This document shows positions 21,108 to 45,532 of a stretch of 64,000 nucleotides of DNA, in pieces. Below the pieces are notes generated by a model. That model was given only the letters and a program-made list of their open reading frames with translations. It did no database searches and had not been told where the DNA came from. The stretch's first letter is position 1; each line of letters opens with the position of its first letter. The DNA is from Pseudoalteromonas espejiana DSM 9414 (lineage in GTDB: Bacteria; Pseudomonadota; Gammaproteobacteria; Enterobacterales; Alteromonadaceae). A program made the position numbers and the translations under genes. The DNA is taken from assembly GCF_002221525.1 (NCBI RefSeq), contig NZ_CP011028.1, forward strand, positions 2,987,001-3,051,000, written 5' to 3'.

Positions 21108-21111
21108 TTAA

Positions 21112-22393: not shown

Positions 22394-22413
22394 GGTGAGG
22401 GTTTCCCCTCACC
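22394..22413 (-). terminator. GC-rich hairpin after pgk
   Basis: GGTGAGGG pairs with CCCTCACC around TTTC, 15 bases beyond the pgk stop. The downstream side is AT-rich but lacks a clean T-run, so partial termination or 3'-end protection is likely. Confidence 0.55.
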
Positions 22414-22427
22414 ATACACGGCTAAAT

Positions 22428-23603: not shown

Positions 23604-23668
23604 AACATCTCCTTAGTTAACGATACTTGAACCTGAAAAATAAATTTTAAAATTATTATAAAATACGT

Positions 23669-24679: not shown

Positions 24680-25020
24680 GAAATATAAAATCCACTCTCT
24701 TTACGTGCAGACAAAGGCATCAATGCCTTTTAGATGGCTGTATTGTAATCGACCTTGAACATTTTTATAAGAGGGAGCGATTAGAAACTTTAAATTAATA
24801 AACCTTTTAATATCAATATTAATAAGCAAAATTAGTTAACAGCATTTATATCCTTCTAATTAAACAATAAAAGTCTTAGTCCTTTAGTCTAATTTATAGA
24901 ATTAACATTGAATTTTAATCTAATCGGGTTATGTTATTAAAATCAAAAAATTTACCTTTTCTTAAAAGTAAATTATCAAAATAAAAGATCATTTATCTAA
25001 ACTTTAGGTTAGAAAATAAA
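24680..25020. other. Divergent intergenic region epd / CrbR-like gene
   Basis: 341 bases, very AT-rich, no gene. It contains the candidate regulator box at 24876-24891. I cannot place promoters for either flank confidently. Confidence 0.65.
24876..24891 (+). promoter_or_regulatory. Candidate CrbR-like operator, copy 1
   Basis: TTAGTCCTTTAGTCTA, two TTAGTC half-sites 8 bases apart, lies about 130-145 bases before the regulator ATG. An identical 16-mer occurs in reverse orientation at 29324-29339 before the porin gene. Confidence 0.5.
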
Positions 25021-25680
25021 ATGACAACACACACAAAAATTATCATTGCAGATGATCACCCCCTGTTTAGGCAAGCATTGTCGCTAATGCTTACCTCAAG
25101 CTTTACTGACTCTTCATTGCTTGAGGCACAAACTATCGCCGAACTAGAACAAGCACTTATTGATACACCCGACATCGACCTTATTTTATTAGATTTAGAT
25201 ATACCCGGTGCGGAGGGGTTTAATACACTTAATAACATTCGCCTTAAATACCCCCATATCGCGGTAGTAGTTATCTCTGGGTTTGAAGAGTCTGAAACCA
25301 TTAATAAGGCAATAGAATTTGGGGCTGCTGGTTTCATACCTAAATCCACTCCCGTTAACGACATGGTAGCTGCACTTAATAGCATTATTAATGGTGAGCT
25401 TTGGGTTCCCGCTTATGCATTAAAACAAGGATCTCAGCAAGATAAAGAAGAAAGTAAAATTTCAACACTCACCAATCAACAACGAAAAATACTCTTTATG
25501 CTGGCTGATGGGCTACTCAATAAACAAATTGCGTATGACCTAAACCTGTCTGAATCGACAATAAAGAGCCATGTGAGTACCATTTTTTTAAAGCTGGGTG
25601 TTAAAAACCGTACTCAAGCCGTTATTTTGCTAAACCACCATAAGCATGAACATGACTTTTTTACTCATAACACACCTTAA
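25021..25680 (+). CDS. LuxR-type response regulator, CrbR/ErdR-like
   Basis: NarL/FixJ-type response regulator of 219 aa. The receiver has Asp11/Asp12 and phospho-acceptor Asp58 (ILLDLDIPG); the LuxR helix-turn-helix covers about 145-205 (LNKQIAYDLNLSESTIKSHV). Relatives CrbR (Vibrio) and ErdR (Pseudomonas) work with symporter/kinase fusions to control acetate or alcohol use. Its stop codon overlaps that of the convergent hybrid kinase by 3-4 bases, which fixes the pairing. Predicted targets are the porin/ABC/ligase operon next door. Confidence 0.85.
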   Translation: MTTHTKIIIADDHPLFRQALSLMLTSSFTDSSLLEAQTIAELEQALIDTPDIDLILLDLDIPGAEGFNTLNNIRLKYPHIAVVVISGFEESETINKAIEFGAAGFIPKSTPVNDMVAALNSIINGELWVPAYALKQGSQQDKEESKISTLTNQQRKILFMLADGLLNKQIAYDLNLSESTIKSHVSTIFLKLGVKNRTQAVILLNHHKHEHDFFTHNTP

Positions 25681-28600
25681 AGAAATGTATCGGATATATA
25701 ATTTTTTTCTAATCGCTTAGTTAAAAGCGAACTCATCAGCGCTCTTAATGCAATAGGTTTAACTATTTTACGCAAATATCCGATATCAGCATTCTGCGCC
25801 TGTTTTTGCACTGACTCATCCATAGTGGCTGTAATGAGAATTGCAGGTAATGGATACGGGCTTACTGCGCGTATAGCTTGAATCAGCTCAATACCATTGT
25901 AATAGCGAACGTGAGCAGGGCTGTGTTTTTGGGCCCCGAGTAATCCCGTGCTCGTTTGTGAATCACATGCGGGTATAGCTTCATCTGTTAGCTGATAATC
26001 AACCAGTAATATATCAATATCTTCCTCGTGGCTCTTGTAAATAGACATAGCCTGTTGAGCATTTGAGGCTAATAGCACATTACACTTCCATGCTGATAGT
26101 AAATCCTTCATACCAGCCGTCACGCTTTCCTCATTGTCTATACACAGCACACACACGCCTTGTAAGCTGTTACTCGCCTGTGTAGGTTTAGGCTCTGCAA
26201 GCTTAACCTCTGACGCTAAAGGCACTTCTACACTAAACGCACTGCCACAATTTACCTTAGAGAGTAGCCCAAGCTTATGATTGAGTATTTCAGCTAAACT
26301 TTTTGCAATATTTAAGCCTAAACCAAGCCCTTTTGGACCCACCAGCTTGGTTGATAATTGTGTAAATTGTTCAAACACTTGCTGTTGTTTTTCGTATGGG
26401 ATCCCGGGGCCATTATCAATTACTTGTATGCACAGGTTTTGCCCTTTCCTGCGACAACCTAACAATACTTTCCCATCGTGTGCATAACGAAAAGCATTAC
26501 TTAAAAAGTTTTGTACAATTCGAGCAAGTAACGTTAAGTCACTTTTTATATACACCTTACTCGAAGCACATCTAAAATCTATTGCGTAATCGTGCGTTAA
26601 AGCTGAAAACTCAAGCTTTAACATAGAGAATAGTTTTTCAATAGGAAATACACTGATATCAGGGGTTATATTACCGCTTTCAATACGTGCTATTTCGTTT
26701 AAATCGAGTAAAAGATTATTAGCAATCTCTAACGAGTTATCTATTTGCTTAATTTGCATTCGCTCTTGCGCAGATACCTTGGCGCTTAAACTTACCGCAG
26801 ATGAAAACAAACGAGCAGCAGAAAGTGGCTGTAATAAATCGTGGCTACATGCTCTTAAGTATTGGCTTTTTTTAAGGTGGGCTTGCTCTGCTTTTAGTTG
26901 TGCTGCTACAAGTTCTTGATTCGCTTTTTCGAGTTCAACATTCGCTTGTTCTAACTCTTTAGTACGTGCTAAAACGCGGCTTTCTAAGTCTGTATTTTCT
27001 TCTTTTAGGTATTTTTCGGCTTTTCTAAATTCTGTAATATCTGTAAAAATCATTACAAAGCCCCCGCCTGGGATCGGGTTTCCTTCAATATTAATAATTT
27101 TATCATTAAGTAAACGCCGCTCAGACTGATGCCTACTTCCTGCTTTTAAATACCCTAAACGTTTATTTACCTGAGCCTCAATATCACACACATATCGCTT
27201 TTGATTTGTAAGGTTGTATCTAATAAGTTCACTGATAGGGCAACCAATATATATAAAATCCTTTGGGTAATTAAAAATATCTAGGTATTGCTTATTCCAA
27301 GCCACTAAATTTAAGTCGCCATCAATCACTGAAATGCCTTCACTGGTATTTTCAATGGCGCCTTGTAAAACTGAGCGACTAAACTCAAGCTGCTGAGTAG
27401 AATTATCTTCTACAATTTTTGCCACTTGGTCAAAAGCCATATCGCGCCCACCTAAACCAAAAGACAATACAAGTTTAGCTGACGCAGCCCCAAGCACAGG
27501 TGCCAAAGTATTCTCAGCATGAAATAGTAATGCTTCATTGTAGGTTTTATGCTTTTTATCTTTGTGCAGTATATTGAATTGTGCAAAACACTGTTTTGAC
27601 TTTTCAAAACCAATAAAGCGGGCCAAAAGCAGTTCAAGTTCACTTATATCTACCTTTGGTTGTTTAGGAAAATGCCTATGGTGGTTTTTACCTGTATCGT
27701 AAAAAAACTTACTCTGCATTTCTTCGCGGATGTTTTGTCGGGTCAGCAATGACACTATAAATAATACGCTTATATTTAGGCTTAACCCTATTAAGGTCAT
27801 TACCGTGGTTTTAGGCCAAGTCGTGTTACTAAATAAGTGTTCGTAAAAACCAAGCTGCGGGAGTAAATTGCCAAATCCCCAAATTAGAAAGCCGCAACTT
27901 ATCCCCCAAAAAACGCCCTTTTGAGTGGCTCTTGGCCAGAAAAAAGCAGCTATCAATGCAGGTCCAATTTGCGCAATAGCGCCAAAAGCAATTTCACCCA
28001 ATGATGATAACGCGCCAGGCGGAGAAATAAGCAACATACCAAGGCTTAATGCTATTACAACAACCACTAACGCCTTACGAATAAATAAAAGCCGTGATTG
28101 AAAATGCAAATAATCGTGGTTTTTCCTGGGTGAAAATTTAAATATAAGCGGGAAGACAATTTCATTGCTCAACATCGTACTCAACGCGATGGTTGATACA
28201 ATAACCATGGAACTTGCTGCAGAAACAGCCCCTAAAAACGCAAATAACGACAACCACACCTGCCCATAATAGGCGGGTAAAAATAATACATAAGCATCTG
28301 CATTTAACGACTCCGCATAATTTAAAGTGCCCGCTAAACCAATAGGCCCTGCAAAAAATGCAAATACTAAAATGTAAGCAGGTAACAACCAACGCGCTAA
28401 GCTACTTGTTTTTCTATCTTTTATTTCAACAAACATGACTTGAAACTGCCGCGGTAAACATAAGCACGCTGACATAACAATAAATAGTAAACCAAACATA
28501 CCTACCAAATTACTTGGTTCAAATTGCTGCGCTAAAGAAACATGCCCTTTTGACTTTTCTAAAATTTCTAAAGGTGAGTCATAAATTACAAACGATACAA

Positions 28601-29216
28601 AAAGCCCCACAAGTAAAAATGCAATCAGTTTAACGGCTGACTCAAATGCAATAGCTATCATCACTCCTGGGTGGCGCTCTGTTACATCAATCGTTCTAAT
28701 ACCAAAAATAATTGTAAAGCCAGTTAAAATCACACTAACAATTAAACCTAGCTGCCAAACGGGCAGATCCTGACTTTCTTGCAAGATAATATATGAGTCA
28801 ATAATTGCTTTTAGTTGTAAGGCTATATAGGGCAAAGTGCCTATTAACGCGACTAGCGTAATAATAAGTGCCAAACTTTGTGACTTGCCAAAACGGGCAG
28901 AGAGTAAATCGGCTATTGAGTTTGTTTTTAGTTGCAGGCTCGTTTTTATAATCCGCTGTATAAAAGGCCAAGCAAATATAAATAATAAGATAGGGGCTAA
29001 ATAAACAGGAATATAATTAAAAGAGCCGCTAGCAGCCTGTGCAGATGTTCCTAAAAAACCCCACGATGTACAGTATACACCCAGCGATAGCGCATAAATA
29101 ATCGCATGCTGTTTAGCAACTAATTTATGACGATACTTCCCGCCTAAAAAAGCGATTAAAAACAGTAAGCTTATATAGCCAATGCTTACACTTATTAGCA
29201 ACCAGTTAGAAAACAT
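25677..29216 (-). CDS. Hybrid sensor kinase with sodium-solute symporter domain, CrbS-like (1 of 2)
   Basis: Inner-membrane protein of about 1179 aa. The first 480 residues are a complete sodium:solute symporter-type domain (about 13 membrane helices, opening with the family motif CTSWGFLGT). A linker, PAS domain, coiled coil, HisKA (SHDLLQPL, His792), HATPase and receiver (Asp1073) follow. The receiver has an unusual insertion of about 25 residues right after Asp1073 that is absent in the second copy. I start at the ATG with AAGAAG upstream; a GTG 10 codons earlier lacks a ribosome site. CrbS/MxtR relatives sense or transport small carboxylates. Confidence 0.9.
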   Translation of the reverse strand: MFSNWLLISVSIGYISLLFLIAFLGGKYRHKLVAKQHAIIYALSLGVYCTSWGFLGTSAQAASGSFNYIPVYLAPILLFIFAWPFIQRIIKTSLQLKTNSIADLLSARFGKSQSLALIITLVALIGTLPYIALQLKAIIDSYIILQESQDLPVWQLGLIVSVILTGFTIIFGIRTIDVTERHPGVMIAIAFESAVKLIAFLLVGLFVSFVIYDSPLEILEKSKGHVSLAQQFEPSNLVGMFGLLFIVMSACLCLPRQFQVMFVEIKDRKTSSLARWLLPAYILVFAFFAGPIGLAGTLNYAESLNADAYVLFLPAYYGQVWLSLFAFLGAVSAASSMVIVSTIALSTMLSNEIVFPLIFKFSPRKNHDYLHFQSRLLFIRKALVVVVIALSLGMLLISPPGALSSLGEIAFGAIAQIGPALIAAFFWPRATQKGVFWGISCGFLIWGFGNLLPQLGFYEHLFSNTTWPKTTVMTLIGLSLNISVLFIVSLLTRQNIREEMQSKFFYDTGKNHHRHFPKQPKVDISELELLLARFIGFEKSKQCFAQFNILHKDKKHKTYNEALLFHAENTLAPVLGAASAKLVLSFGLGGRDMAFDQVAKIVEDNSTQQLEFSRSVLQGAIENTSEGISVIDGDLNLVAWNKQYLDIFNYPKDFIYIGCPISELIRYNLTNQKRYVCDIEAQVNKRLGYLKAGSRHQSERRLLNDKIINIEGNPIPGGGFVMIFTDITEFRKAEKYLKEENTDLESRVLARTKELEQANVELEKANQELVAAQLKAEQAHLKKSQYLRACSHDLLQPLSAARLFSSAVSLSAKVSAQERMQIKQIDNSLEIANNLLLDLNEIARIESGNITPDISVFPIEKLFSMLKLEFSALTHDYAIDFRCASSKVYIKSDLTLLARIVQNFLSNAFRYAHDGKVLLGCRRKGQNLCIQVIDNGPGIPYEKQQQVFEQFTQLSTKLVGPKGLGLGLNIAKSLAEILNHKLGLLSKVNCGSAFSVEVPLASEVKLAEPKPTQASNSLQGVCVLCIDNEESVTAGMKDLLSAWKCNVLLASNAQQAMSIYKSHEEDIDILLVDYQLTDEAIPACDSQTSTGLLGAQKHSPAHVRYYNGIELIQAIRAVSPYPLPAILITATMDESVQKQAQNADIGYLRKIVKPIALRALMSSLLTKRLEKNYISDTFL

Positions 29217-29323
29217 AATGAGCTTCTTGTCCGTGCTTTTTAGCACATTTTTTATTATTAGTAGAAGTGGGAGTTACCCTTTTTACATCCTGAATTTAAC
29301 CATATAGCACCCAACTAAAGAAC

Positions 29324-29339
29324 TAGACTAAAGGACTAA
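29324..29339 (-). promoter_or_regulatory. Candidate CrbR-like operator, copy 2
   Basis: On the minus strand TTAGTCCTTTAGTCTA, identical to 24876-24891, with a third TTTAGT half-site further along. It lies about 90-104 bases before the porin ATG and 108 bases before the divergent kinase ATG, a fitting position for a shared activator site. Confidence 0.5.
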
Positions 29340-29427
29340 ACGATAGGTGCTAAGTCTTATTACTAATTGTTGCTTTGTTCGGTTTACTTACTATTAGCTG
29401 AACAACTAATACAAGGGAATAAGCTAG

Positions 29428-30468
29428 ATGTTCGATTCAAAATATAAAAAACTACTACTGGCATCTTCGTTACTAACTGCAAGTTCAGCCGCTTTTGCCG
29501 GCTACGAAATCAAACTAACAGAAAACGATAAACTCACATTTGGTGGCTATATAAAAATAGACTCTCGGTATGTTGATGGGGATGTAGCTTATCGTGATTT
29601 TTGGATTGGGGATGGTGCAGCGCTTGAAGAAGACGCCTCTCAGTTTAAAATTTTTGCTAATGAAACCCGTTTCAACACCAAGTATGTCCATGGCGATGTG
29701 ACCGGCTTTATTGAAATGGATTTTAACGGTGGTGGTGGTAACGAAATAATATCGAACTCTGCAAACCCACGTATACGTCACGCTTTTATAAACTATCAAG
29801 ACCTCACTGTTGGCCAAACGTGGTCAACGTTTATGAATACCAGTGCAATTCCAGAAGCAGCCGATTTTGCAGGTGCTACCACAGGGCTGGTGTTTATTCG
29901 CCAAGGGCAAGTGCGTTATAACATGGGTAATTTTCAACTGTCGCTAGAAAACCCAGAAACATGGGGCGGCGATACCTCTAACGACAAACTACCCGATTTA
30001 GTCGCTCGCTATAACTTTAAAGATGATTGGGGCAACGTATCAGTATCGGCCCTTGCGCGTCAGCTTAACACTCTCTCAGGTGAGCAAGAATCTGCTTTTG
30101 GTATGTCTGTGGCAGGTTTAGTTAAAACAACTGGCAAAGATGATCTACGTTTTCAATTTCACAAAGGTGAGCTTGGTCGCTATGTCGGCGCTGCTGCTGC
30201 AAAAGATGTATACGATAACGAAGTTGAAGATCTCACCTCAGTACTCATAGCATACCGCCACTTTTGGACAGATACACTTCGTTCAAGCGTGCTCTACGGA
30301 AAAGTTGAAGGTGATGTGTCTGAGCGCGAACGTACTCAATGGGGCGTTAACGTATTTCAAAATTTAACCAAAGATTTAGTGGTGGGCTTTGAAGTAGGTA
30401 ACTTCTGTATGGATGAACAAGATAAAGACTCTAACTACGTTCAAGCCACATTGAGATTTGCACTTTAA
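29428..30468 (+). CDS. DcaP-like outer-membrane porin
   Basis: Predicted beta-barrel porin of 346 aa. A signal peptide ends at about residue 24 (AAFA). The pattern LTFGGYIKIDSRY, FIEMDFNGGGGN, PRIRHAFINYQDLTVGQTWSTFM and FIRQGQVRYNMGNFQLSLENPE is that of the DcaP family, whose Acinetobacter member takes up dicarboxylates. The last residue is Leu in ATLRFAL rather than the usual terminal Phe. AAGGGA precedes the ATG. A terminator-like hairpin follows, so the ABC genes downstream are read at a reduced level from this promoter. Confidence 0.82.
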   Translation: MFDSKYKKLLLASSLLTASSAAFAGYEIKLTENDKLTFGGYIKIDSRYVDGDVAYRDFWIGDGAALEEDASQFKIFANETRFNTKYVHGDVTGFIEMDFNGGGGNEIISNSANPRIRHAFINYQDLTVGQTWSTFMNTSAIPEAADFAGATTGLVFIRQGQVRYNMGNFQLSLENPETWGGDTSNDKLPDLVARYNFKDDWGNVSVSALARQLNTLSGEQESAFGMSVAGLVKTTGKDDLRFQFHKGELGRYVGAAAAKDVYDNEVEDLTSVLIAYRHFWTDTLRSSVLYGKVEGDVSERERTQWGVNVFQNLTKDLVVGFEVGNFCMDEQDKDSNYVQATLRFAL

Positions 30469-30503
30469 GCCACTTTACCTCTAATGCTTAGCACCGCGTA
30501 ACA

Positions 30504-30552
30504 CTCCCAACCAATGTTGCGTTTGGGAGGAGAATACTCTCCTCCCCTTTTT
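30504..30552 (+). terminator. Terminator with competing upstream hairpin between porin and ABC operon
   Basis: GGGAGGAGA (30525-30533) pairs with TCTCCTCCC (30538-30546) around ATAC and is followed by C and T5. An upstream pairing of CTCCCAA (30504-30510) with TTGGGAG (30523-30529) uses the same left arm, so the two structures exclude each other. There is little room for a promoter between this site and the ATG at 30593. Confidence 0.7.
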
Positions 30553-30592
30553 ACATTAGAGACAGTCAATCCGAAAAATTTGGAGAGCAGCA

Positions 30593-31411
30593 ATGACAGC
30601 TTCAATACTTAATGTAGAAAACATATCACTTGCTTTTGGTGGGGTTAAAGCCTTAACCGATGTGAGCTTTTCTGTTAAAGAAGGGTCTGTTTTTTCGATT
30701 ATTGGCCCTAATGGGGCCGGTAAAACCTCAATGTTAAATTGTATTTCAGGGCGCTATACCCCTAATAGCGGTAACATTTTTTTTAATAATAAAAACGTAA
30801 CGAGTTTGCAGCCAAACGACCGCGCCGATTTAGGGATGGGTCGAACATTTCAAAACCTCGCTTTATTTGGTCATATGTCGGTATTAGACAACATTATGGT
30901 TGGCCGTCATCACTTATTAAAAAATAATTGGCTAACGGGTCCATTATATTGGGCATCCGGTGCGCAAAAAGAGGAACTTGAACACAGACGAAAAGTTGAA
31001 GAAGTCATCGACTTTTTAGAAATATCCCACATCCGCAAATCCATAGCAGGCACCCTATCTTATGGTTTACGCAAACGCGTAGAGCTTGCAAGAGCAATGG
31101 CCCTCAATCCTAAACTTATTCTACTCGACGAGCCAATGGCAGGCATGAACCTAGAAGAAAAAGAAGATATGGCTAGGTACATTCTTGACCTTAATGAAGA
31201 GTTTGGGATCACCGTTGTCATGATTGAACACGACATGGGCGTGGTGATGGATATTTCCCATGAAGTAATGGTTTTAGATTTTGGTAAAAACTTAATTTGC
31301 GCCAAACCAGAACAAGTAATGGCAGACCCATACGTAAAACGTGCCTATTTAGGACTCGAAGAAGCCGATAGCGAACCTGAAGAAGTTAACACATTAGAGG
31401 AAGTAAGCTAA
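30593..31411 (+). CDS. ABC transporter ATPase, LivG-like
   Basis: ATPase of 272 aa in the branched-chain-amino-acid (HAAT) transporter class. Walker A GPNGAGKT, signature LSYGLRKRVELARAM, Walker B LILLDEPMAGMN and switch His in MIEHDMGVV are intact. The long insertion after the Q-loop (LLKNNWLTGPLYWASG) is typical of LivG. GGAGAG is the ribosome site. One-base overlap with the ligase gene shows translational coupling. The substrate is probably not an amino acid, given the ligases in the operon. Confidence 0.92.
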   Translation: MTASILNVENISLAFGGVKALTDVSFSVKEGSVFSIIGPNGAGKTSMLNCISGRYTPNSGNIFFNNKNVTSLQPNDRADLGMGRTFQNLALFGHMSVLDNIMVGRHHLLKNNWLTGPLYWASGAQKEELEHRRKVEEVIDFLEISHIRKSIAGTLSYGLRKRVELARAMALNPKLILLDEPMAGMNLEEKEDMARYILDLNEEFGITVVMIEHDMGVVMDISHEVMVLDFGKNLICAKPEQVMADPYVKRAYLGLEEADSEPEEVNTLEEVS

Positions 31412-33381
31412 TGACTCACCATGATTCAATTAATGATTTTGAAATGGCCGAACTCAATACCTTTCCTAAAATATTACAGTTTAATGCCCAGCAATGGCCT
31501 CATGAAACAGCCATGCGAGAAAAAGAATTTGGTATATGGAATGAATTTACATGGGAAGATTATAACAACCGAGTAAAGTGGCTCACACTTGCATTGCTAG
31601 ATAAAGGTGTAAATAAGGGTGATGCAATTGCCTTGCTTGGCGATAATCGCCCTGAATGGGTGTGGGGAGAAGTAGCTGCGCACGCAATGCGATGCCACTC
31701 TTTAGGTATTTACCAAGATTCAATGCATGAAGAAGTGGCCTACTTACTCCAAAGTAGTCATGCCACGGTTGTAATAGCTGAAGATGAAGAACAGTGCGAT
31801 AAATTACTCGAACTAGGCGATGAAATTTCACACGTTAAATTTATTGTTTACTGCGACCCTAGAGGCATGCGCAAATACAACGATGAGCGCTTAATTGACG
31901 TAAATTCGCTGTATACACTTGGCCAAACCATAGATAACAGTGAACCTAATCGCTACCCACAACTAATTGAAGCAACCTCCCCAGACGACATAGCAATTTA
32001 CTGTACAACATCCGGCACTACTTCAAAGCCTAAAATAGCACTACTCAATGGTGGTAATTTTGTTAAACATTGCAGCTCTTACTTAAGAGCTGATCCACGC
32101 CAGCCAGGCGATAACTACGTATCGGTATTACCTCTGCCTTGGATAATGGAGCAAGTTTATGCTGTTGGCCAAGCACTTATTGCACGTCAAATAGTTAACT
32201 TTGTTGAAGAGCAACAAACATTAATGTCTGATCTTAGAGAAATAGGCCCAAGCTTTGTATTACTTGCCCCACGAGTATGGGAAGGAATTTTAGCGGATGT
32301 TCAAGCTCGGATGATGGACTCAACACCATTAAAAAGAAAACTATTTTCTTTTGCCATGAGCATTGCCGAAAAAAGCCAGCTTAAAGGTAAAAAATCGTGG
32401 TTTGCAGAGCTTATTTTAATGAGAGCGCTTAGAGACAGACTCGGCTTTTCATATTTAAAATCGGCAGCAACAGGCGGGGCTGCAATGGGCCCAGACACGT
32501 TTAGGTTTTTTCAAACCATTGGTGTGCCGTTAAGGCAACTTTATGGGCAAACCGAAATGTGTGGTGCTTATACAATTCATCATCAAAACGATGTTGATTA
32601 CGACAGTGTTGGCTTTGCGTTCGATAACGCAAAAATTAAGGTGATTAACGAGGATGAAGCCGGTGTTGGCGAAATCGTTGCTAAAACAGTGGGTATGTTT
32701 ACCGGCTATCTTAATAACCAAGATGCATACAACGAAGATGTTAAAGATGGATGGATGCAAACAGGCGATGCAGGCTACTTTAAGCCTTCAGGGCACTTGG
32801 TTGTTATCGATCGAATAAAAGACTTAGCATGCACAAATAACGGCGTTCAATACTCACCGCAATACATTGAAAATAAATTGAAGTTTTCGTCATTTATTGG
32901 CGAAGCCGTCATATTAGGTAAAAACAAACCTTATTTATCAGCCATCATTTGTATTCGTTTTAGTATCGTTGCTAAATGGGCAGAACAAAACGGTTACTCA
33001 TTCACAAATTACACTAACTTATCTACCCACCCTGAAGTTTATAAAAAGCTCAGTGAAGAAATACAACGTGTTAATGAATCACTCCCTGACGCTCAAAAAA
33101 TACATAAGTTTTTACTGCTTTATAAAGAGCTTGATGCTGATGATGGAGAGCTTACACGTACGCGTAAAGTAAGACGCAGCGTTATTGCCCAAAAGTATGG
33201 CGATATCATAGATGCGATATACCAAGATCAAAATATAGTTGATATTGATACCGTTATTGTATTTCAAGATGGCACTAAAACACGCATTCAAACTCAACTT
33301 AAAATCCAATCTCTTATTAATACTCCCACAGTCACCCCCGTGGCAAACACTCACACTGAAGCACAACGGAGAGCATCATGA
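31411..33381 (+). CDS. AMP-forming acyl-CoA synthetase, long FadD-type
   Basis: Adenylate-forming ligase of 656 aa. The ATP P-loop is TSGTTSKPK, the A5 motif YGQTEMCGAY, the A7 motif GWMQTGDAGYF and the hinge VIDRIKD. Length and the split nature match long-chain-type acyl-CoA synthetases that accompany Liv-type transporters. It should convert an imported acid to its CoA thioester at the inner face of the membrane. It sits between the transporter ATPase and permease genes with overlaps of 1 and 4 bases, showing tight coupling to transport. The carboxylate substrate cannot be read from sequence. Confidence 0.9.
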   Translation: MTHHDSINDFEMAELNTFPKILQFNAQQWPHETAMREKEFGIWNEFTWEDYNNRVKWLTLALLDKGVNKGDAIALLGDNRPEWVWGEVAAHAMRCHSLGIYQDSMHEEVAYLLQSSHATVVIAEDEEQCDKLLELGDEISHVKFIVYCDPRGMRKYNDERLIDVNSLYTLGQTIDNSEPNRYPQLIEATSPDDIAIYCTTSGTTSKPKIALLNGGNFVKHCSSYLRADPRQPGDNYVSVLPLPWIMEQVYAVGQALIARQIVNFVEEQQTLMSDLREIGPSFVLLAPRVWEGILADVQARMMDSTPLKRKLFSFAMSIAEKSQLKGKKSWFAELILMRALRDRLGFSYLKSAATGGAAMGPDTFRFFQTIGVPLRQLYGQTEMCGAYTIHHQNDVDYDSVGFAFDNAKIKVINEDEAGVGEIVAKTVGMFTGYLNNQDAYNEDVKDGWMQTGDAGYFKPSGHLVVIDRIKDLACTNNGVQYSPQYIENKLKFSSFIGEAVILGKNKPYLSAIICIRFSIVAKWAEQNGYSFTNYTNLSTHPEVYKKLSEEIQRVNESLPDAQKIHKFLLLYKELDADDGELTRTRKVRRSVIAQKYGDIIDAIYQDQNIVDIDTVIVFQDGTKTRIQTQLKIQSLINTPTVTPVANTHTEAQRRAS

Positions 33382-34271
33382 ACTTTGAATTACTCATTCA
33401 GTTAATCATTAATGGGCTTATTGTCGGCTTGTTGTATGGCGTCGTCGGTATGTGTTTTGTTTTAGTTTATAAGTCGACACAAATTGTAAACTTTGCACAA
33501 GGCGAATTTTTACTTGTCGGTGCCTGGGTATGCTGGAGCGTACTTATTTACTTAGAGCTGCCCTTTATTGTTGGCTTTTTGCTCACAATGGCGTTTATGG
33601 CGGCCTTTGGTATTTTAATTCAAATGATTGTTTTACGCCCTATGATTGGCGAGCCAATTATTTCAGTCATTATGGTTACAATTGGTTTATCTATCTTTTT
33701 TCAAGCGTTGATGAAGTGGATTTTTGGTGTGTCAGCGCAAAGTTACCCGCAAGTATTTGATGCACAAAGCATTCAAATTTTTGGCCTAAATATAGAGTCA
33801 GCCTACTTAATGAGTACGGTTATAGCCTTAATTATTATGGTTGCATTTTACCTCTTTTTTAAACATTCAAAATATGGCCTCGCTATGCGAGCCACTGCAT
33901 TTAATCAGCAAATTGCACAAAGCTTAGGTATTTCCGTTAAACAAGTGTTTGCTATGAGCTGGGGCATTGCGGCAACGGTATCAGCAACAGCCGGTATTGT
34001 AATAGGGATGGTTAACGGGGTTTCAAGTTCTCTATCAATGATGGGGATTAAAGTGTTCCCAGCCGTTATTTTAGGTGGCCTCGACTCGATTGTAGGTGCA
34101 ATTGTGGGTGGCTTAACAATTGGAGTGCTGGAAAACTTAGCTGAGTTTTTTGATAGCCAATACCTTCATGTTGGCAACATGTACGACATAGCGCCATTTT
34201 ACGTCCTTCTCATCATACTTTGGTTTAAACCTTATGGTTTATTTGGAACTAAAGATATTGAACGAATTTAA
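33378..34271 (+). CDS. ABC transporter permease, LivH-like
   Basis: Inner-membrane permease of 297 aa with about eight hydrophobic segments. The family patterns NGLIVGLLYGVVGMCFVLVYKSTQIVNFAQGE at the N-terminus and the late GIKVFPAVILGGLDSIVGAIVGG loop, which contacts the ATPase, are present. Start overlaps the ligase stop by 4 bases (ATGA). Confidence 0.93.
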   Translation: MNFELLIQLIINGLIVGLLYGVVGMCFVLVYKSTQIVNFAQGEFLLVGAWVCWSVLIYLELPFIVGFLLTMAFMAAFGILIQMIVLRPMIGEPIISVIMVTIGLSIFFQALMKWIFGVSAQSYPQVFDAQSIQIFGLNIESAYLMSTVIALIIMVAFYLFFKHSKYGLAMRATAFNQQIAQSLGISVKQVFAMSWGIAATVSATAGIVIGMVNGVSSSLSMMGIKVFPAVILGGLDSIVGAIVGGLTIGVLENLAEFFDSQYLHVGNMYDIAPFYVLLIILWFKPYGLFGTKDIERI

Positions 34272-34289
34272 GAGCTTACATTTAGCGAC

Positions 34290-34309
34290 GCGCTGTAAAA
34301 ATACAGCGC
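34290..34309 (+). other. Intercistronic hairpin livH-livM
   Basis: GCGCTGTA pairs with TACAGCGC around AAAA, an 8-pair stem with no T-run. It probably shapes mRNA processing or stability rather than termination. Confidence 0.65.
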
Positions 34310-34349
34310 AATGCGCTTAAACATAAATTATAAAAATTAGGATCTTATT

Positions 34350-35423
34350 ATGTCTAGCTTAACTATGCGCCCGTGTGGCGACTTTAGAACCAGTTACAAA
34401 CAAGACAATACCATTTACGAAACTAAAACCATTCGTAACGTAGCTATTATTGCCATTGCACTACTATGCTGCGCACCATTTTTAGTCGATGCATACTTTT
34501 TAACGCTGTTTATTCAAATTTCATATTTAGGCATTGCGGCACTAGGCCTTAACATTTTAGTCGGTTATACGGGGCAAATATCATTAGGCCATGGCGCATT
34601 TTTTGGCTTTGGTGCGTTTGCCTCAGCTTGGCTGAATATGTCCTTTGGCATCCCTGTTTTATTGTGTATCCCTATCGCAGGCTTTTTAACTATGTTGGTT
34701 GGCATGCTATTTGGCCTTCCCGCTTCGCGTATTAAAGGGCTTTATTTAGCAATTGCCACTTTAGCCGCTCAATTTATTCTCGAAGATTTTTTTGCTCGTG
34801 CCCAATGGTTTACTGGTGGTTCAGCTGGCTCATCAGCCGACCCTGTCTCTATTTTTGGCTTTGTGTTTAATACCGACCAAAGCTTTTTTTACATTGCGTT
34901 ATTTGCCCTTGTTTTTATGTATATCTGGGGATGTAACCTAATGCGCAGCCGAGAAGGTCGCGCCTTTATTGCAGTAAGAGATCACTACCTATCAGCAGAA
35001 ATTATGGGAATAAAACTTAATAAGTACCGTTTGCTGTCATTTGGGGTTTCATCTTTCTATGCGGGTATTGGCGGTGCGTTATACGCGCATTACCTAGGAT
35101 ACGTTTCAGCTGAAGGATTTACATTATTTATGTCGATTCAATTTCTAGCGATGATCATCATTGGTGGCTTAGGTTCTATTAAAGGCACCCTTATGGGCGT
35201 TGTATTTATGGTGTTTTTACCTGAAGTGTTAGAAAGCGGCGTTGGATTAATGAAAATGACTGATTGGGGCAATATTCCTATGGTGGTTGATGGCCTTGCT
35301 TACATTAAAGAAATGGCTATAGGCCTAGTTATTATTTTATTTTTAATTTTTGAGCCAGAAGGCATGGCGCATCGCTGGGCACAAATTAAAAACTATTGGA
35401 AATTTTACCCGTTTTCTTACTAA
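34350..35423 (+). CDS. ABC transporter permease, LivM-like
   Basis: Inner-membrane permease of 357 aa. Family patterns are LNILVGYTGQISLGHGAFFGFGAF, RIKGLYLAIATLAAQFI and the late FLAMIIIGGLGSIKGTLMG coupling loop. The cytoplasmic N-terminus of about 30 residues is longer than usual and an internal start is possible, but AGGATC precedes the chosen ATG. It forms the second half of the channel with the LivH-like protein. Confidence 0.92.
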   Translation: MSSLTMRPCGDFRTSYKQDNTIYETKTIRNVAIIAIALLCCAPFLVDAYFLTLFIQISYLGIAALGLNILVGYTGQISLGHGAFFGFGAFASAWLNMSFGIPVLLCIPIAGFLTMLVGMLFGLPASRIKGLYLAIATLAAQFILEDFFARAQWFTGGSAGSSADPVSIFGFVFNTDQSFFYIALFALVFMYIWGCNLMRSREGRAFIAVRDHYLSAEIMGIKLNKYRLLSFGVSSFYAGIGGALYAHYLGYVSAEGFTLFMSIQFLAMIIIGGLGSIKGTLMGVVFMVFLPEVLESGVGLMKMTDWGNIPMVVDGLAYIKEMAIGLVIILFLIFEPEGMAHRWAQIKNYWKFYPFSY

Positions 35424-35486
35424 CAAATTACACGACAACAACAAGCTCATTGGCAACACAGCCAAAAAATGAAAAAGGAAATTATC

Positions 35487-36734
35487 ATGCACAATAAATT
35501 AAAATTAAGTTCTGTATTTGTATGTTGCTCATTAGCTATGAGTAACCACGTAATTGCTCAAGACTCTGTGTTTGTAGGTCACTTAGCTGATATGTCAGGA
35601 CCTACCTCATTTGTTGGTAAAAACTATGCTGACGGAGTACGTGACTCACTTGCTTACATTAATGAAAATGGCGGTATTAATGGCACTCGATTAGAGTCTG
35701 AAACTATTGATTACGCCTATAAAGTACCACAGGCCATTGCTTCTTATAAAAAATGGTATTCGCGTAAAAAAATGGTCGCAATGCAAGGCTGGGGTACCGC
35801 TGATACAGAAGCGCTAATTTCGTTTGTAGCCAGAGACAAAGTCCCCGTATTTTCAGCGTCTTATTCTGGACATTTAACCGACCCGACTGGCAAAAATCCA
35901 CACACTAAAAAACCAGCGCCTTATAACTTTTTTTATGGCGCTTCGTACTCAGACTCTTGCCGTGGACTTGTTCAATGGGCTGCTCAAGATTGGCAGAACA
36001 AAGGCGGTAAAGGTAAACCCAAATTTACTCACCTAGGTGCAAATCATCCATTTCCTAACGCGCCTAAAGAAGCCTGTGCAGAATACGCAACTGAGCTCGG
36101 TTTTGATGTACAACCTGCAATCGTAATTTCGATGAAACCAGGCGATTTTAAAGCGCAATGTTTAAGTTTAAAAAGCTCAGGCTCTAATTATGGCTACATT
36201 GGCAACTTAGGTGGCTCTGTACTTTCGTTGGTTAAATCATGTAATACCGTCGGCGTTGATATTCAGTTTATGTCAAACATTTGGGGCGGCGACAAAAAAA
36301 TCTTTAATGCGGCAGGTGAAGGCATTAAAGATTACATTTTCCCTACTATGACCCCTTTTTGGGAAGATGAAATGCCTGGCATGAAATTGGTGAGAGAAAT
36401 ATCAAAACAATCAGATCCATCAGGAAAAGAGCAGCGCGTTCACCATTATGTGCGCGGTGTTTGTTCAACGTTTTACATGAAAGAAGCAATGGAATGGGCA
36501 AAAGAAAACGGCGGTATAACTGGCGAAAACATTAAAAAAGGCATGTACGTTAAAAAGAACTGGGTGCCTAAAGGGCTTGAAGGTGTGTGCTTAGCTGCCA
36601 ACTGGAGTAAAGACGATCACCGTGGTGTAAACCAAGTAAACATATACAAAGGCAATTACAACAAAGGCAATGTAACTGCTGAAAAAGTATCGGTAGTAAC
36701 ACTTGAACGCCGTGACGATTGGTTAGGCTACTAA
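35487..36734 (+). CDS. ABC transporter substrate-binding protein (Liv type)
   Basis: Periplasmic binding protein of 415 aa with a signal peptide ending near VIA at residue 25. The fold is the peripl_BP_6 type: GHLADMSGPTSFVGKNYADGVRDSLAYINENGGINGT. Three cysteine-containing segments (SDSCRGL, KEACAEY, GVCSTFYM) may form disulfides. I use the ATG with AAAGGA upstream rather than one 6 codons earlier. Relatives in clusters with acyl-CoA ligases are thought to bind aromatic or aliphatic acids rather than branched amino acids. Confidence 0.88.
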   Translation: MHNKLKLSSVFVCCSLAMSNHVIAQDSVFVGHLADMSGPTSFVGKNYADGVRDSLAYINENGGINGTRLESETIDYAYKVPQAIASYKKWYSRKKMVAMQGWGTADTEALISFVARDKVPVFSASYSGHLTDPTGKNPHTKKPAPYNFFYGASYSDSCRGLVQWAAQDWQNKGGKGKPKFTHLGANHPFPNAPKEACAEYATELGFDVQPAIVISMKPGDFKAQCLSLKSSGSNYGYIGNLGGSVLSLVKSCNTVGVDIQFMSNIWGGDKKIFNAAGEGIKDYIFPTMTPFWEDEMPGMKLVREISKQSDPSGKEQRVHHYVRGVCSTFYMKEAMEWAKENGGITGENIKKGMYVKKNWVPKGLEGVCLAANWSKDDHRGVNQVNIYKGNYNKGNVTAEKVSVVTLERRDDWLGY

Positions 36735-36746
36735 TAAATATAAAAA

Positions 36747-36782
36747 TTGGTTGCAAGGATCTTCAAAGCTCTTTGCAACCAA
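36747..36782 (+). other. Intercistronic hairpin after the binding-protein gene
   Basis: TTGGTTGCAA pairs with TTGCAACCAA, extended by GG/TC, with a loop of about 12 bases. It lacks a T-run. Hairpins in this position often protect the upstream mRNA and let the binding protein be made in excess. Confidence 0.7.
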
Positions 36783-36812
36783 CCTACAAGACTAAATAAA
36801 TACGGAGTGTGT

Positions 36813-37634
36813 ATGTCATCAGCAGCAAAAAAATTAGAGCCCGCCTCACCCATCTTAACCGTCAATAATATAGAAGTTGTATACGATGAAGTTATTCAGG
36901 TACTTAGAGGCGTTAGCTTAGATGTACCAGAGGGAGAGATTGTTACTTTATTAGGCCCAAATGGGGCAGGTAAATCAACAACACTTAAAGCTATTTCTGG
37001 ATTACTTAAAACCGAAAACGGTGAAGTAACCAAAGGTGACATTACTTTTATGGGCGAGCGCATAGATTCTAAAAATGCAGAAGATGTGGTGCGCAGCGGT
37101 TTATTTCAAGTAATGGAAGGGCGTCGTATTATTGAAGATATGACATCTTTAGAAAACTTAAAGCTAGGTGCATTTACTAGAAGAGACTCGCAAATAAACC
37201 AAGATATTGACATGGTTTATCACTACTTTCCGCGTTTGAAAGAGCGCACAGGTTTAGCCGGCTATTTATCTGGCGGTGAACAACAAATGCTAGCAATAGG
37301 TCGGGCATTAATGGCTAGGCCAAAAATGATTTGCCTAGATGAGCCATCAATGGGCCTCTCCCCCCTACTTGTTAAAGAAGTATTCGCGATAATAAAAAAA
37401 ATAAATGAAGAGCAAGGCATCACTATGTTTTTAGTAGAGCAAAACGCTAATTACGCGCTGCGTGCTGCTAATTATGGCTACATTATGGAGTCTGGAAAAG
37501 TGGTATTAGACGGAACACAAGAGCAGCTCATGAATAACGAGGATGTTAAAGAGTTTTACCTAGGAGGTGGTAACGAAGACCGTAAAAGCTTTAAAGATTT
37601 AAAGTCTTATAAACGCAGAAAGCGCTGGCTGTAA
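36813..37634 (+). CDS. ABC transporter ATPase, LivF-like
   Basis: Second transporter ATPase, 273 aa. Walker A GPNGAGKS, signature LSGGEQQMLAIGRALM, Walker B MICLDEPSMGLSP and FLVEQNANYAL H-region are intact. The C-terminus is extended by about 20 Lys/Arg-rich residues (SFKDLKSYKRRKRWL). I start at the ATG with GGAG upstream; the longer frame would run back over the hairpin. Confidence 0.92.
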   Translation: MSSAAKKLEPASPILTVNNIEVVYDEVIQVLRGVSLDVPEGEIVTLLGPNGAGKSTTLKAISGLLKTENGEVTKGDITFMGERIDSKNAEDVVRSGLFQVMEGRRIIEDMTSLENLKLGAFTRRDSQINQDIDMVYHYFPRLKERTGLAGYLSGGEQQMLAIGRALMARPKMICLDEPSMGLSPLLVKEVFAIIKKINEEQGITMFLVEQNANYALRAANYGYIMESGKVVLDGTQEQLMNNEDVKEFYLGGGNEDRKSFKDLKSYKRRKRWL

Positions 37635-37684
37635 TAAAAACAGTTTAAATAAATTTACTTTTTAGCATGACTTCGGAGCCCCTT

Positions 37685-38932
37685 ATGACTAACTTATTTA
37701 ACCCAAAAGAAAGCCAATCGCATATAAGCCGAGAACACGATTTATTCACAAAATTGCCTAGCTTTATTTCATATGCAAAACAAAACACCCCCTATTACAA
37801 AAATATATTAGCCGATATTACTGCGGATAAAATAACTACTCGGGAACAATTGGCCACACTGCCCATTACCAGAAAATCATCACTCATTAGCTTACAAAAA
37901 ACAGCATCGCCGTTAGCGGGGTTAAACTCAGAGCAAGGGCATATTAGTCGGCTGTTTCAATCGCCCGGCCCTATTAACGACCCAGAAAACTGTGAAAATG
38001 ACTGGTGGAGAATGGGCCAAGCATTTTACGCAGCTGGTTTTAGAAAGCACGATAAGGTGCAAAACTGTTTGTCGTACCATTTAACGCCTGGTGGGTTCAT
38101 ACTTGATTCCGGAGCTCGCGCCTGTGGCTGTATTGTAATACCCGCAGGGCCAGGGCAAACCGAACAACAACTCGACACCATTGAAGGACTAAAACCTCAA
38201 GGCTACTGCGGCACTCCCTCTTTTTTAAAAATTTTATTAAATAAAGCTCAGCAGCAAAAGCGCGATATAAGCAGTATTACTAAAGCATTAGTCACCGGTG
38301 AGGCTTTACCTAAAGCACTGCGTGATGAGTTTACAGCAGCAGGCATTAATACATTACAAGCTTATGCCAGCGCAGATGTAGGTTTAATTGCTTATGAAAG
38401 CATTGCAGATGATGGTTTAATTATTGCTGAAGACCTTATTGTGGAAATTGTTCGCCCTGGCAGTTTAGAGCCGGTAGCCGATGGCGAGGTAGGTGAAGTT
38501 GTTGTAACCAGCTTCAACCATGACTACCCTTTAATTCGCTTCGCTACAGGTGACTTATCTGCTATTAAATCAGGGCAAAGTAAATGTGGACGTACAAATT
38601 TACGCATAAAAGGCTGGATGGGACGAGCAGATCAGACAACCAAAATTAAAGGTATGTTTGTCCATCCCGAGCAAGTGGAGCGCGTTAGGTTAAGTGTTAG
38701 CGGCATTACTAAAGTCAGGCTGAATGTTACAAGTGAAAGCCATAACGATAAAATGCACCTTTTGTGTGAGCTAAGTACAAACGCCAATAATGCAGAGACA
38801 ACCACACTGCAAAACACACTATCAGAAAGCCTAAAGCTATATACAAAGTTAAATGGCAGTGTTGAGCTTGTGAGCCCCGGCACTTTAAGCGATGACGGCA
38901 AAGTGATCGACGACCTAAGAGCTACGTGTTAG
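37685..38932 (+). CDS. PaaK-like phenylacetate-CoA ligase family protein
   Basis: Adenylate-forming ligase of 415 aa in the PaaK family. The start of the fold, FISYAKQNTPYYKNIL, and GKTTREQLATLPITRKS-type region are followed by YHLTPGGF, GGTPS-like QGYCGTPS, the acyl-adenylate motif YASADVGLIAYE and the C-domain hinge. The usual PaaK P-loop SSGTTGKP is replaced by LFQSPGPINDPE, so activity may be altered. It is shorter than PaaK (about 437). The start is the ATG with GGAG upstream. It follows the LivF gene, making two ligases in one transport operon. Confidence 0.82.
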   Translation: MTNLFNPKESQSHISREHDLFTKLPSFISYAKQNTPYYKNILADITADKITTREQLATLPITRKSSLISLQKTASPLAGLNSEQGHISRLFQSPGPINDPENCENDWWRMGQAFYAAGFRKHDKVQNCLSYHLTPGGFILDSGARACGCIVIPAGPGQTEQQLDTIEGLKPQGYCGTPSFLKILLNKAQQQKRDISSITKALVTGEALPKALRDEFTAAGINTLQAYASADVGLIAYESIADDGLIIAEDLIVEIVRPGSLEPVADGEVGEVVVTSFNHDYPLIRFATGDLSAIKSGQSKCGRTNLRIKGWMGRADQTTKIKGMFVHPEQVERVRLSVSGITKVRLNVTSESHNDKMHLLCELSTNANNAETTTLQNTLSESLKLYTKLNGSVELVSPGTLSDDGKVIDDLRATC

Positions 38933-39015
38933 TTTTATTTTCAACAAGGCTTTGAGTTTGCTAATAAAATACCTGCCTCAGCATTTTAAAGCCTTTATCT
39001 CTAAAAGAGCAATAT

Positions 39016-39492
39016 ATGAGTAAAATCGCTTTTCAAGACTGCTATATACAAAGCTTAAGCCATTGTTATGGATGCGGTAAAAACAACCCCGAAGGGCATC
39101 AGCTGAAAAGCTACTGGTTAGATAACTATGAGGGAAGTAAAACAATAGCTCACTTTACGCCTAAGCCCTACCACACCGCTATTCCTGGGTTTGTGTATGG
39201 TGGCTTATTGGCCTCTCTTATTGATTGCCATGGCACAGGGAGCGCAGCAGCCGTTGTCCACTATAAAAATAACTTAACTATTGGCAGCGACCCTACAATT
39301 CGTTTTGTTACAGCGGCCTTAAATATTAATTATTTAGCGCCAACACCTATAGATAAACAACTAGAGCTCGTAGGCGAGTTTAGCCAAGTAAAAGATAATA
39401 AAGTAATTGTTGATATTACTTTATCTACAAATAACGTTATTTGCGTAAAAGGTGAAGTAGTCGCTGTTAAAATGCCAGCCACGTTTAAATAA
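39016..39492 (+). CDS. Hotdog-fold thioesterase, PaaI-like
   Basis: Protein of 158 aa with a single hotdog domain. An N-terminal CYGCGKNNPEG, a possible metal or redox CxxC pair, is followed by YHTAIPGFVYGGLLASLIDCHGTGSA, the helix with its catalytic Asp. It would hydrolyse acyl-CoA thioesters made by the ligases upstream. It lies 83 bases after the PaaK-like gene and before a bidirectional terminator, so it closes the operon. Confidence 0.82.
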   Translation: MSKIAFQDCYIQSLSHCYGCGKNNPEGHQLKSYWLDNYEGSKTIAHFTPKPYHTAIPGFVYGGLLASLIDCHGTGSAAAVVHYKNNLTIGSDPTIRFVTAALNINYLAPTPIDKQLELVGEFSQVKDNKVIVDITLSTNNVICVKGEVVAVKMPATFK

Positions 39493-39520
39493 GCAGTATT
39501 TAAAACTTTTAAATGAACCC

Positions 39521-39549
39521 AAAAGTAGCTTAATTACTCTGCTACTTTT
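39521..39549. terminator. Bidirectional terminator
   Basis: AAAAGTAGC pairs with GCTACTTTT around an 11-base loop, between convergent genes ending at 39492 and 39582. Confidence 0.82.
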
Positions 39550-39581
39550 AGGCGTTCACCATAGTATAAACTGATTGTTTA

Positions 39582-40241
39582 CTACAGTGCTTTTAGAGCA
39601 TTAATAATATCTTCTGGCTCTGAGCGTGTACGGTAATCAACATCAACATAACGCCACGTCACCTTACCTTCACTATTTAAAACAAAGGTGGCAGGGATAG
39701 GTAGAATGCTGCCATTGCCGTTATTAAGTGACTCTAAATCAAGGCCGCGGTCTACACGCATATGCTCTAGTAAAAATTCAGGAACTTTCCACGCTACGCC
39801 ATAACTTGCTGCAACATCTGCATTTTGGTCACTCAGCACTACAAAATCCATGTTACTTATTTCGTTTTCGCTCATTGAGCCATCAGGCATTTGTGGGCTA
39901 ATAGCAACCAACTGTGCGCCTAATGCATGAATTTCAGGTAAGCGCGCTTGAAGCGCTTTTAGCTGTAAATTACAGTATGGACACCAACTACCACGATAAA
40001 AAGTAATAACCATCGGGCCTTTAGCAAGTAACTCGGTTAACTGCACCGATTGACCTTGTTGATTTGGTAACTCAAAGTTTGGCGCGTTTTGGTTTAGAGC
40101 AAGTGCATTAGCTCCCTCTTGAAAAGATTTTGCTTGAGCAATACTCTCATCAACACCTTTCATAAAAGCAGGATTACCTTTTCGCCCTGCTGCTACTTTT
40201 GCCTCGGTTTGTGCTTTTAATGTGTTGCTTTCATCGCTCAT
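39582..40241 (-). CDS. Peroxiredoxin-like protein (AhpC/TSA family)
   Basis: Thioredoxin-fold protein of 219 aa. The core from about residue 50 (ALNQNAPNFELPNQQGQ) contains FYRGSWCPYCNLQL, with a vicinal CPYC motif where classical peroxiredoxins have a single Cys. The N-terminal 45 residues are helical and charged. Substrate unknown; a thiol peroxidase role is likely. Cytoplasmic, single gene. Confidence 0.82.
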   Translation of the reverse strand: MSDESNTLKAQTEAKVAAGRKGNPAFMKGVDESIAQAKSFQEGANALALNQNAPNFELPNQQGQSVQLTELLAKGPMVITFYRGSWCPYCNLQLKALQARLPEIHALGAQLVAISPQMPDGSMSENEISNMDFVVLSDQNADVAASYGVAWKVPEFLLEHMRVDRGLDLESLNNGNGSILPIPATFVLNSEGKVTWRYVDVDYRTRSEPEDIINALKAL

Positions 40242-40320
40242 AGTATGGCTACCTTCAAATTAATCAAAAACGTAAAGCCAGCTTACATTATGACAATGTA
40301 TTTGGAATGAAAATTTTAAC

Positions 40321-41049
40321 TTAATCATCTACTTCTAAATCAAACACCACGTCTATAGATGATTTAAAGCTTAGTGTTGCCTGTAAATCGTTACTACGTA
40401 TTTGAGGAAAAGAATTATTGCCTTGCTGCGCCCTGTGCATTTTGGTTATGGCTGTACTAAAACCACTGTCATAGTTGTTTTTAGTTGAACGAATAGTGCG
40501 TACTTCACCTACTTTTGCATTGAATGAATCAGCAAGGGAACCCGCTTTTATTTTTGCATCTTCAATTGCTAACTGTGTGACTTGCGCTTGTAGTTGTTCA
40601 AATTTTGAAGATAAAAACTCAATATCTTGAATGGCATTTACTTCTTGGTTCAATAAAAAATCTGTTAAATCGCTCACACGCTCAATACTGTTTAGCGTTA
40701 CTTCAAACGTTCTTATCGCTGAGTATTCGCTAAGGGCCTGATGCCCTGTTTCAATATAATCCATCCCTGTTTTTTCAATTTTAACGTTTGAGGCAACTAC
40801 GTCATCAGCGCTTATTTCAAATTGATTGAGCCCATCTATTAATAACTTCACTTTATTCTCAAGCTCATTATTGGCGGCTTTCGGCTCATTTTTAACACTA
40901 TTCACTCTAAATAGTATTTTAGCCATATCAGGCTCAACTAATACCTCAGCAGTGCCTTGCACTGAGATATGACGATTGGCTGGTAAGCTCGCATTAGCAA
41001 AAGCGATGAGTGGTAAAAAGAGTAGAAAAATAGTGATGATGAGTTTCAT
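40321..41049 (-). CDS. SIMPL-domain (DUF541) exported protein
   Basis: Protein of 242 aa with a signal peptide ending near residue 20 (FANA). The mature part has the SIMPL pattern: ISVQGTAEVLVEPDMAKILFRV, then VVASNVKIEKTG and YSAIRTFEVTL. Members are periplasmic or envelope proteins of unclear role, often oligomeric. AAGGAATGA precedes the ATG. Alone on its transcript as far as I can see. Confidence 0.85.
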   Translation of the reverse strand: MKLIITIFLLFLPLIAFANASLPANRHISVQGTAEVLVEPDMAKILFRVNSVKNEPKAANNELENKVKLLIDGLNQFEISADDVVASNVKIEKTGMDYIETGHQALSEYSAIRTFEVTLNSIERVSDLTDFLLNQEVNAIQDIEFLSSKFEQLQAQVTQLAIEDAKIKAGSLADSFNAKVGEVRTIRSTKNNYDSGFSTAITKMHRAQQGNNSFPQIRSNDLQATLSFKSSIDVVFDLEVDD

Positions 41050-41829: not shown

Positions 41830-41844
41830 ACATCTTCCCCCTAA

Positions 41845-43695: not shown

Positions 43696-43741
43696 TAAAA
43701 AGTATACACAAAACCTAATGTACTCATTATTTAAACAAATA

Positions 43742-43767
43742 AAAAGCCCGACTAAAGTCGGGCTTTT
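43742..43767 (-). terminator. Intrinsic terminator after the symporter
   Basis: AAAAGCCCGAC pairs with GTCGGGCTTTT around TAAA. It lies 31 bases beyond the symporter stop. Confidence 0.9.
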
Positions 43768-43797
43768 GGTGCTTTATTTTTAAGTAGGCTTAGCGCA

Positions 43798-45522: not shown

Positions 45523-45532
45523 TGCTTAGCTC

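Follow-up and report, generated by a model that had tools for sequence, protein, structure and literature searches.

A possible self-regulated uptake and activation system for short-chain monocarboxylic acids in Pseudoalteromonas espejiana

Results

Gene content of the block

The window, a stretch of 64,000 nucleotides from Pseudoalteromonas espejiana DSM 9414 (contig NZ_CP011028.1, positions 2,987,001 to 3,051,000, forward strand; genome of 4.5 Mb on two contigs), holds a 14.7-kb block at about 24,799-39,502. It brings together a response regulator (RR1), a hybrid histidine kinase (HK1), a porin, an ATP-binding cassette (ABC) transporter with its substrate-binding protein (SBP), two ligase-fold proteins and a thioesterase, and we present it as a candidate system for the import and activation of a carboxylic acid. 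Its features, in window coordinates, are as follows.

24799..39502, no strand: entire block from RR1 to the thioesterase; missing in non-carrier G663 (BLASTN, window against locus L117)
24877..24891, +: operator-like palindrome TAGTCCTTTAGTCTA, 15 bp, exact, upstream of RR1
25021..25680, +: RR1, LuxR/NarL-type response regulator, CrbR/ErdR-like (Pfam Response_reg and GerE)
25677..29246, -: HK1, hybrid histidine kinase (N-terminus hydrophobic; paralogous to the 46188-49628 kinase)
29324..29338, -: second exact copy of TAGTCCTTTAGTCTA, between HK1 and dcaP
29428..30468, +: DcaP-type outer-membrane porin (PF19577, 47.3 bits, cut-off 27; 6eus, E 1.3e-8)
30525..30546, +: terminator-like hairpin with T-run, between dcaP and livG (z -4.75 for 30490-30560)
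30593..31411, +: LivG-type ATPase (PF00005; best NCBIfam LivG, 247.2 bits, below its cut-off of 362)
31411..33381, +: acyl-CoA (coenzyme A) synthetase, 656 aa (AMP-binding; canonical ANL motifs)
33378..34271, +: LivH-type permease (PF02653)
34350..35423, +: LivM-type permease (PF02653)
35469..36734, start perhaps 35487, +: periplasmic SBP (PF13458, 193 bits), without the LivJ/LivK amino-group residues
36747..37634, +: LivF-type ATPase (PF00005; best NCBIfam LivF, 227.8 bits, below its cut-off of 441)
37667..38932, +: PaaK-like putative pseudo-ligase, 421 aa, P-loop replaced by FQSPGPI
39016..39492, +: hotdog thioesterase (4HBT), accessory (PF03061; 2prx, E 5.4e-61)

Matches above Pfam cut-offs comprised DcaP, ABC_tran (twice), BPD_transp_2 (twice), Peripla_BP_6, AMP-binding (twice) and 4HBT. 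A single gene run thus encodes every part of a HAAT/Liv importer: a Peripla_BP_6 SBP, two BPD_transp_2 permeases and two ABC ATPases. Open reading frames and Pfam agree with the initial annotation on the nine genes from dcaP to the thioesterase, on their positions and on the overlaps of the 656-aa ligase gene with livG (1 base) and livH (4 bases). That annotation drew the unit at 29428..39492, an extent that proved too narrow: RR1, HK1 and the operator-like sites also belong to it. The hairpin at 30525-30546 sets dcaP off from livG and points to partial termination behind dcaP. Across the region there were 11 terminator-like sites, with 14.2 expected from shuffles, and this hairpin is the richest of them in G-C pairs. 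An Rfam scan of window positions 24000-47000 at gathering scores gave no match.

Distribution and conserved gene order

In G663 (L117), window segments 20002-24798 and 39503-40362 are contiguous, with an overlap of 14 bases; the second of the two non-carriers compared by BLASTN (L116) has no clean empty site at the block position. Among 60 genomes of the genus, the window's own included, a close HK1 relative occurs in G675 only (77% identity; next matches 34-38%), and RR1 is 67% identical there and at most 46% identical elsewhere. Of 48 genomes of the genus, only the two with a close HK1 and RR1 have the SBP; among relatives overall it is present in 4/79. Given these shared carriers and the G663 empty site, the regulators, porin, transporter, ligase and thioesterase come and go as one block, and so sparse a presence within the genus favours gain rather than loss. 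A tree of 28 ligase sequences groups the window and L005 (the Pseudoalteromonas rhizosphaerae RA15 locus) with four Cognaticolwellia-type rows (support 100/98), which fits transfer from Colwelliaceae. Further afield, SBP relatives with an E value of 1e-60 or better were found in 4/274 genomes from the class of the window, 17/398 across the phylum and 21/337 from the class of G301, the last spread over 17 of 253 genera.

We compared 80 named loci, counting relatives at 40% identity or more within the flanks examined. The order livG-ligase-livH-livM-SBP-livF-PaaK is kept in 76 of them, including loci from Colwellia, Shewanella, Ferrimonas, Vibrio, Endozoicomonas and Thalassospira. The remaining loci (L009, L015, L024, L049) are short, their sequence stopping inside the unit. 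Because the order is kept wherever locus ends do not cut it, the seven-gene grouping is not a product of chance. In each of the 76 complete loci the canonical ligase gene is flanked by livG and livH. Relatives of the remaining genes are less constant in the flanks (HK1 47, dcaP 44, thioesterase 25, RR1 18 and ActP 1 of 80), and dcaP and the thioesterase, to the latter of which the initial annotation gave a putative safety-valve role, are accessories of the unit. Most of the core, or all of it, is present in 23 of 27 distant SBP regions; three of these 23 (L119, L137, L141) have no PaaK-like gene at 35% identity or more. The four regions without the unit (L138, L139, L144, L145) have SBP relatives of 40-51% identity that are solitary or accompanied by livF alone.

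The binding protein lacks amino-group recognition residues

The SBP is the sole Peripla_BP_6 match over the cut-off in the genome, a second match falling below it. Aligned with Escherichia coli LivJ and LivK, it has Ile271 in place of Glu226 (Ile in 19 of 20 sequences) and Leu247 in place of Tyr202 (Leu in 19/20), two residues that we take to contact the ligand amino group in LivJ/LivK. The Ser79 position is still hydroxylated, as Thr, in 20/20. A pairwise alignment with 1usg gave the same correspondence for positions 226 and 202. It is unlikely, judging from these replacements, that the ligand needs a free alpha-amino group, and with both amino-group residues missing the importer probably does not transport amino acids.

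The fold by itself is more permissive. The SBP model (mean predicted local distance difference test score, pLDDT, 80.6) matches 3eaf, 3lkb and then 4n03; 3lkb is valine-bound, so that the fold alone is compatible with amino acids. Together with the HAAT subunits, this second-ranked match speaks for a transporter of branched-chain amino acids whose ligases are incidental, a reading that we consider very improbable in view of the lost Glu226 and Tyr202 positions and of a ligase that sits within the operon in every complete locus. LivJ/LivK-type branched-chain amino acid transport is rejected on the two substitutions. The block thus shares subunit composition and families with E. coli LivJ/LivK-LivHMGF, but it differs in its SBP, in having a ligase in the operon and in its attached porin and two-component system.

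One canonical ligase and one putative pseudo-ligase

The 656-aa ligase carries the A10 lysine in 86/86 sequences, and its P-loop reads TTSGTT in every listed variant (85 of the 86 rows). The changed P-loop that the initial annotation had seen in the PaaK-like protein is genuine and conserved: it is replaced in 87/87 sequences, a loop of the G-[ST]-T type occurs in 0/87, and the aligned A10 lysine is missing in 30/85. Vibrio and Endozoicomonas proteins (L052-L055, L067, L070) have no DGK motif at the aligned A10 site. Against NCBIfam TIGR02155 the window protein scores 147.1 bits, below the cut-off of 646.3. In their replaced P-loop and often lost A10 lysine the PaaK-like proteins differ from PaaK, BT_0428 and 2-hydroxyisobutyryl-CoA ligase.

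Two active ligases are therefore rejected, and the two-step or dual-substrate pathway that had been read into the gene pair is not supported. The fold and several conserved motif residues are retained in the PaaK-like protein but the ATP-phosphate loop is not, so a binding or modulating role (for AMP, acyl-AMP or acyl-CoA) is more likely for it than adenylation. A more specific version, on the unlikely side in our estimate, would have a short- or branched-chain fatty acid ABC importer with its own SLC5/STAC-type kinase, in which the conserved, catalytically dead pseudo-ligase serves as an acyl-CoA, acyl-AMP or AMP gauge coupling import to activation by the real ligase. If this were so, the PaaK fold would gain a new and testable role, that of a conserved pseudo-ligase standing beside a true ligase from its own superfamily.

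Regulators related to an acetate-type system

CrbS kinases have the architecture SLC5-STAC-PAS-HisKA-HATPase-REC, and Pfam matched PAS, HisKA, HATPase and REC in HK1. Across its whole length HK1 shares 34% identity with the 46188-49628 kinase, which we take to be the native CrbS from its neighbours (the SSF symporter and DUF294-CBS genes). RR1 is 43% identical to the native regulator; its best NCBIfam profile is ErdR, at 212.5 bits and below the cut-off of 390. A profile comparison with ActP gave E 2.7e-4 and a probability of 41%.

The neighbouring locus at 41206-49628 is of the acetate type, with a DnaQ-like gene, DUF294-CBS, a VC_2705-family SSF symporter (ActP-like) and the CrbS-like kinase. 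A kinase like the latter is present in 60/60 same-genus genomes (the window's own included). Many genomes of the genus carry another CrbS-like kinase, 35-38% identical to HK1 (for example G666:C13:50012-53329), with a response regulator gene nearby in some.

TAGTCCTTTAGTCTA occurs at two sites only in the genome, both exact, when up to one mismatch is allowed. It resembles the ACTU motif of CrbR (PMC5715377). We built an ACTU matrix from 8 of the 23 rows in Table 4 of that paper, hand-chosen and only some of them experimentally supported, and scored the HK1-operon intergenic regions (47 of 48; L032, of 24 bases, was left out), which come from related loci and are thus not mutually independent. 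Scores of at least 9 were reached in 37/47, against 5.9 expected from shuffles, and scores of at least 12 in 21/47, against 1.07; among 273 control intergenic regions of the same loci, 19 reached 9 and five reached 12. The window sites are an ACTU variant, scoring 9.4 at dcaP and 13.1 at RR1, with a C at the fifth base that the window shares with most Colwellia-type loci. Two further high-scoring ACTU-like sites lie at 45887 and 46031, within the acetate-type locus.

HK1 and RR1 are a separate pair, travelling with the operon and related to the CrbS/CrbR (MxtR/ErdR) acetate system. The likeness consists of a full-length homologue of the CrbS-like kinase beside the ActP-like gene, an ErdR-like regulator and ACTU-like palindromes between kinase and operon; the block differs in keeping its own pair with the operon, in the fifth-base C and in a predicted target that is an ABC importer rather than acs/actP. 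Among SLC5/STAC kinase systems, CrbS/R and CbrA/B were characterised earlier and RpuS/R was added by PMC9100948, according to that article. The block could also be a mere extension of the adjacent acetate-type locus (ActP-like, DUF294-CBS, CrbS-like) devoted to acetate scavenging, as its location and its CrbS/CrbR-like regulators would allow. We regard this as improbable: HK1 and RR1 are distant from the native pair and have their own motif variant, and an ActP relative stands in the flanks of a single one of the 80 loci.

Catabolic neighbours in distant carriers

In the order of G202 (54 genomes), a methylmalonate-semialdehyde dehydrogenase gene adjoins the operon in 4/4 SBP carriers, with more isobutyryl-CoA genes where the contig extends; the arrangement is divergent in G202 and G788, and immediately downstream of the operon in G738 and G739. 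Profiles over their cut-offs in G202 were the dehydrogenase, a hydratase and a 3-hydroxyisobutyryl-CoA hydrolase; those for acyl-CoA dehydrogenase fell below. G084 has, on the same strand around the unit, 3-hydroxybutyryl-CoA dehydrogenase and acetoacetate-CoA ligase (both over cut-off) and enoyl-CoA hydratase (below). Neighbours in G832 are two acyl-CoA dehydrogenases, a thiolase, a carboxyltransferase and an AtuE-like hydratase, the thiolase alone exceeding a cut-off. Four Vibrionaceae loci have genes for electron transfer flavoprotein (ETF) and ETF-quinone oxidoreductase (ETF-QO).

Overall, catabolic genes were matched in 9 of the 27 distant SBP regions (24 matches) and in 1 of 20 control regions (one 30% aldehyde dehydrogenase match); the controls were chosen, non-random positions in 12 contigs of carrier genomes and longer than the test flanks. 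Flanking genes in high-GC loci were picked by codon-position GC and BLAST. Among the flanking proteins run through Pfam or NCBIfam, a part of all flanking open reading frames, there was no ring-degradation gene. This null, and a PaaK-like protein without an intact ATP loop, make it improbable that the block imports and activates aromatic acids in the manner of CouP-type proteins. The catabolic neighbours and the acetate-type regulator together favour short or branched-chain monocarboxylates as substrate, with moderate strength.

Discussion

We tentatively propose, with a confidence a little short of even, that the block takes up and activates, under its own regulation, a monocarboxylic acid of short and probably branched chain, of the isobutyrate, isovalerate, 2-methylbutyrate or butyrate class. 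The acid would cross the outer membrane via DcaP. HK1 would sense it, or a consequence of it, and phosphorylate RR1, which would bind TAGTCCTTTAGTCTA at the two predicted sites, one 5' of the RR1 gene and the other in the HK1-dcaP interval. In the periplasm, the Peripla_BP_6 protein would hold the acid through its carboxylate, without amino-group recognition; LivHMGF would import it, and the canonical 656-aa ligase would form the acyl-CoA for beta-oxidation or branched-chain acyl-CoA breakdown. The initial annotation had likewise envisaged import of a non-amino-acid carboxylate followed by CoA activation, and this part gains indirect support from the SBP residue losses, the ligase in 76 complete loci and some of the catabolic neighbours.

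Short-chain acids are usually thought to enter cells by diffusion or through symporters. If our proposal is true, a dedicated ABC importer with an acetate-type sensor would mean that some bacteria spend ATP both on import and on activation. The findings also caution against two automatic names, branched-chain amino acid transporter and phenylacetate-CoA ligase. We found no publication on the operon or on ABC uptake of isobutyrate in the open-licence literature.

Several observations weigh against the proposal. The strict neighbour count is 5 of 21 operon regions (L136, L146, L147, L148, L150), three of them from one order; this count leaves out the four operon-less regions (L138, L139, L144, L145) as well as L120 and L121, which were reference sources. 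Catabolic matches in L132 and L144 are of 24-27% identity to a generic ligase and were not counted strictly, and the genomes of Bradyrhizobium size that were examined (L118, L124 and L125) gave no catabolic neighbour match. On the regulatory side, the reversed-pattern control of TAGTCCTTTAGTCTA found one genome match at up to one mismatch, the motif copy 5' of RR1 had no counterpart in the three other checkable loci, and Pfam SSF matched neither the HK1 N-terminus nor that of the CrbS-like kinase. The best NCBIfam profile of the 656-aa ligase is FadD11 (228.5 bits, far below the cut-off of 950), which makes longer acids possible, and DcaP porins serve di- and tricarboxylates and are needed for growth on such acids in Acinetobacter (PMC12338516).

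The last two points also speak for a medium- or long-chain fatty acid or a dicarboxylate as substrate, comparable to the case of RPA3723/RPA3724, encoded next to the pim operon in Rhodopseudomonas palustris, and so does the title of fold match 4n03, a fatty acid SBP. HAAT binding proteins for fatty, dicarboxylic and aromatic acids are known from R. palustris, where HAAT proteins shift with the first two (PMC3223731); RPA3723/RPA3724, for fatty or dicarboxylic acids, adjoin the CoA-ligase operon pimFABCDE. That arrangement differs from ours in that the ligase lies in the adjacent operon, and the passages of PMC3223731 consulted mention no such kinase. We hold a fatty acid or dicarboxylate substrate to be doubtful, given the C4-C5 acyl-CoA pathway neighbours in some distant carriers and a regulator pair related to the acetate system.

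Some further features of related loci were observed. In one Colwellia genome a chemoreceptor-like gene (L035:1924-3495) lies immediately 5' of dcaP, and in Colwellia maritima (L077) several operon genes are split into two adjoining fragments, as if frameshifted or misassembled. An aconitase-family gene adjoins the unit or the SBP, mostly divergent from livG, in Thalassospira and several other distant genomes (L056-L060, L062-L066, L068, L069, L071-L076, L078, L122, L133, L134, L135, L139, L141).

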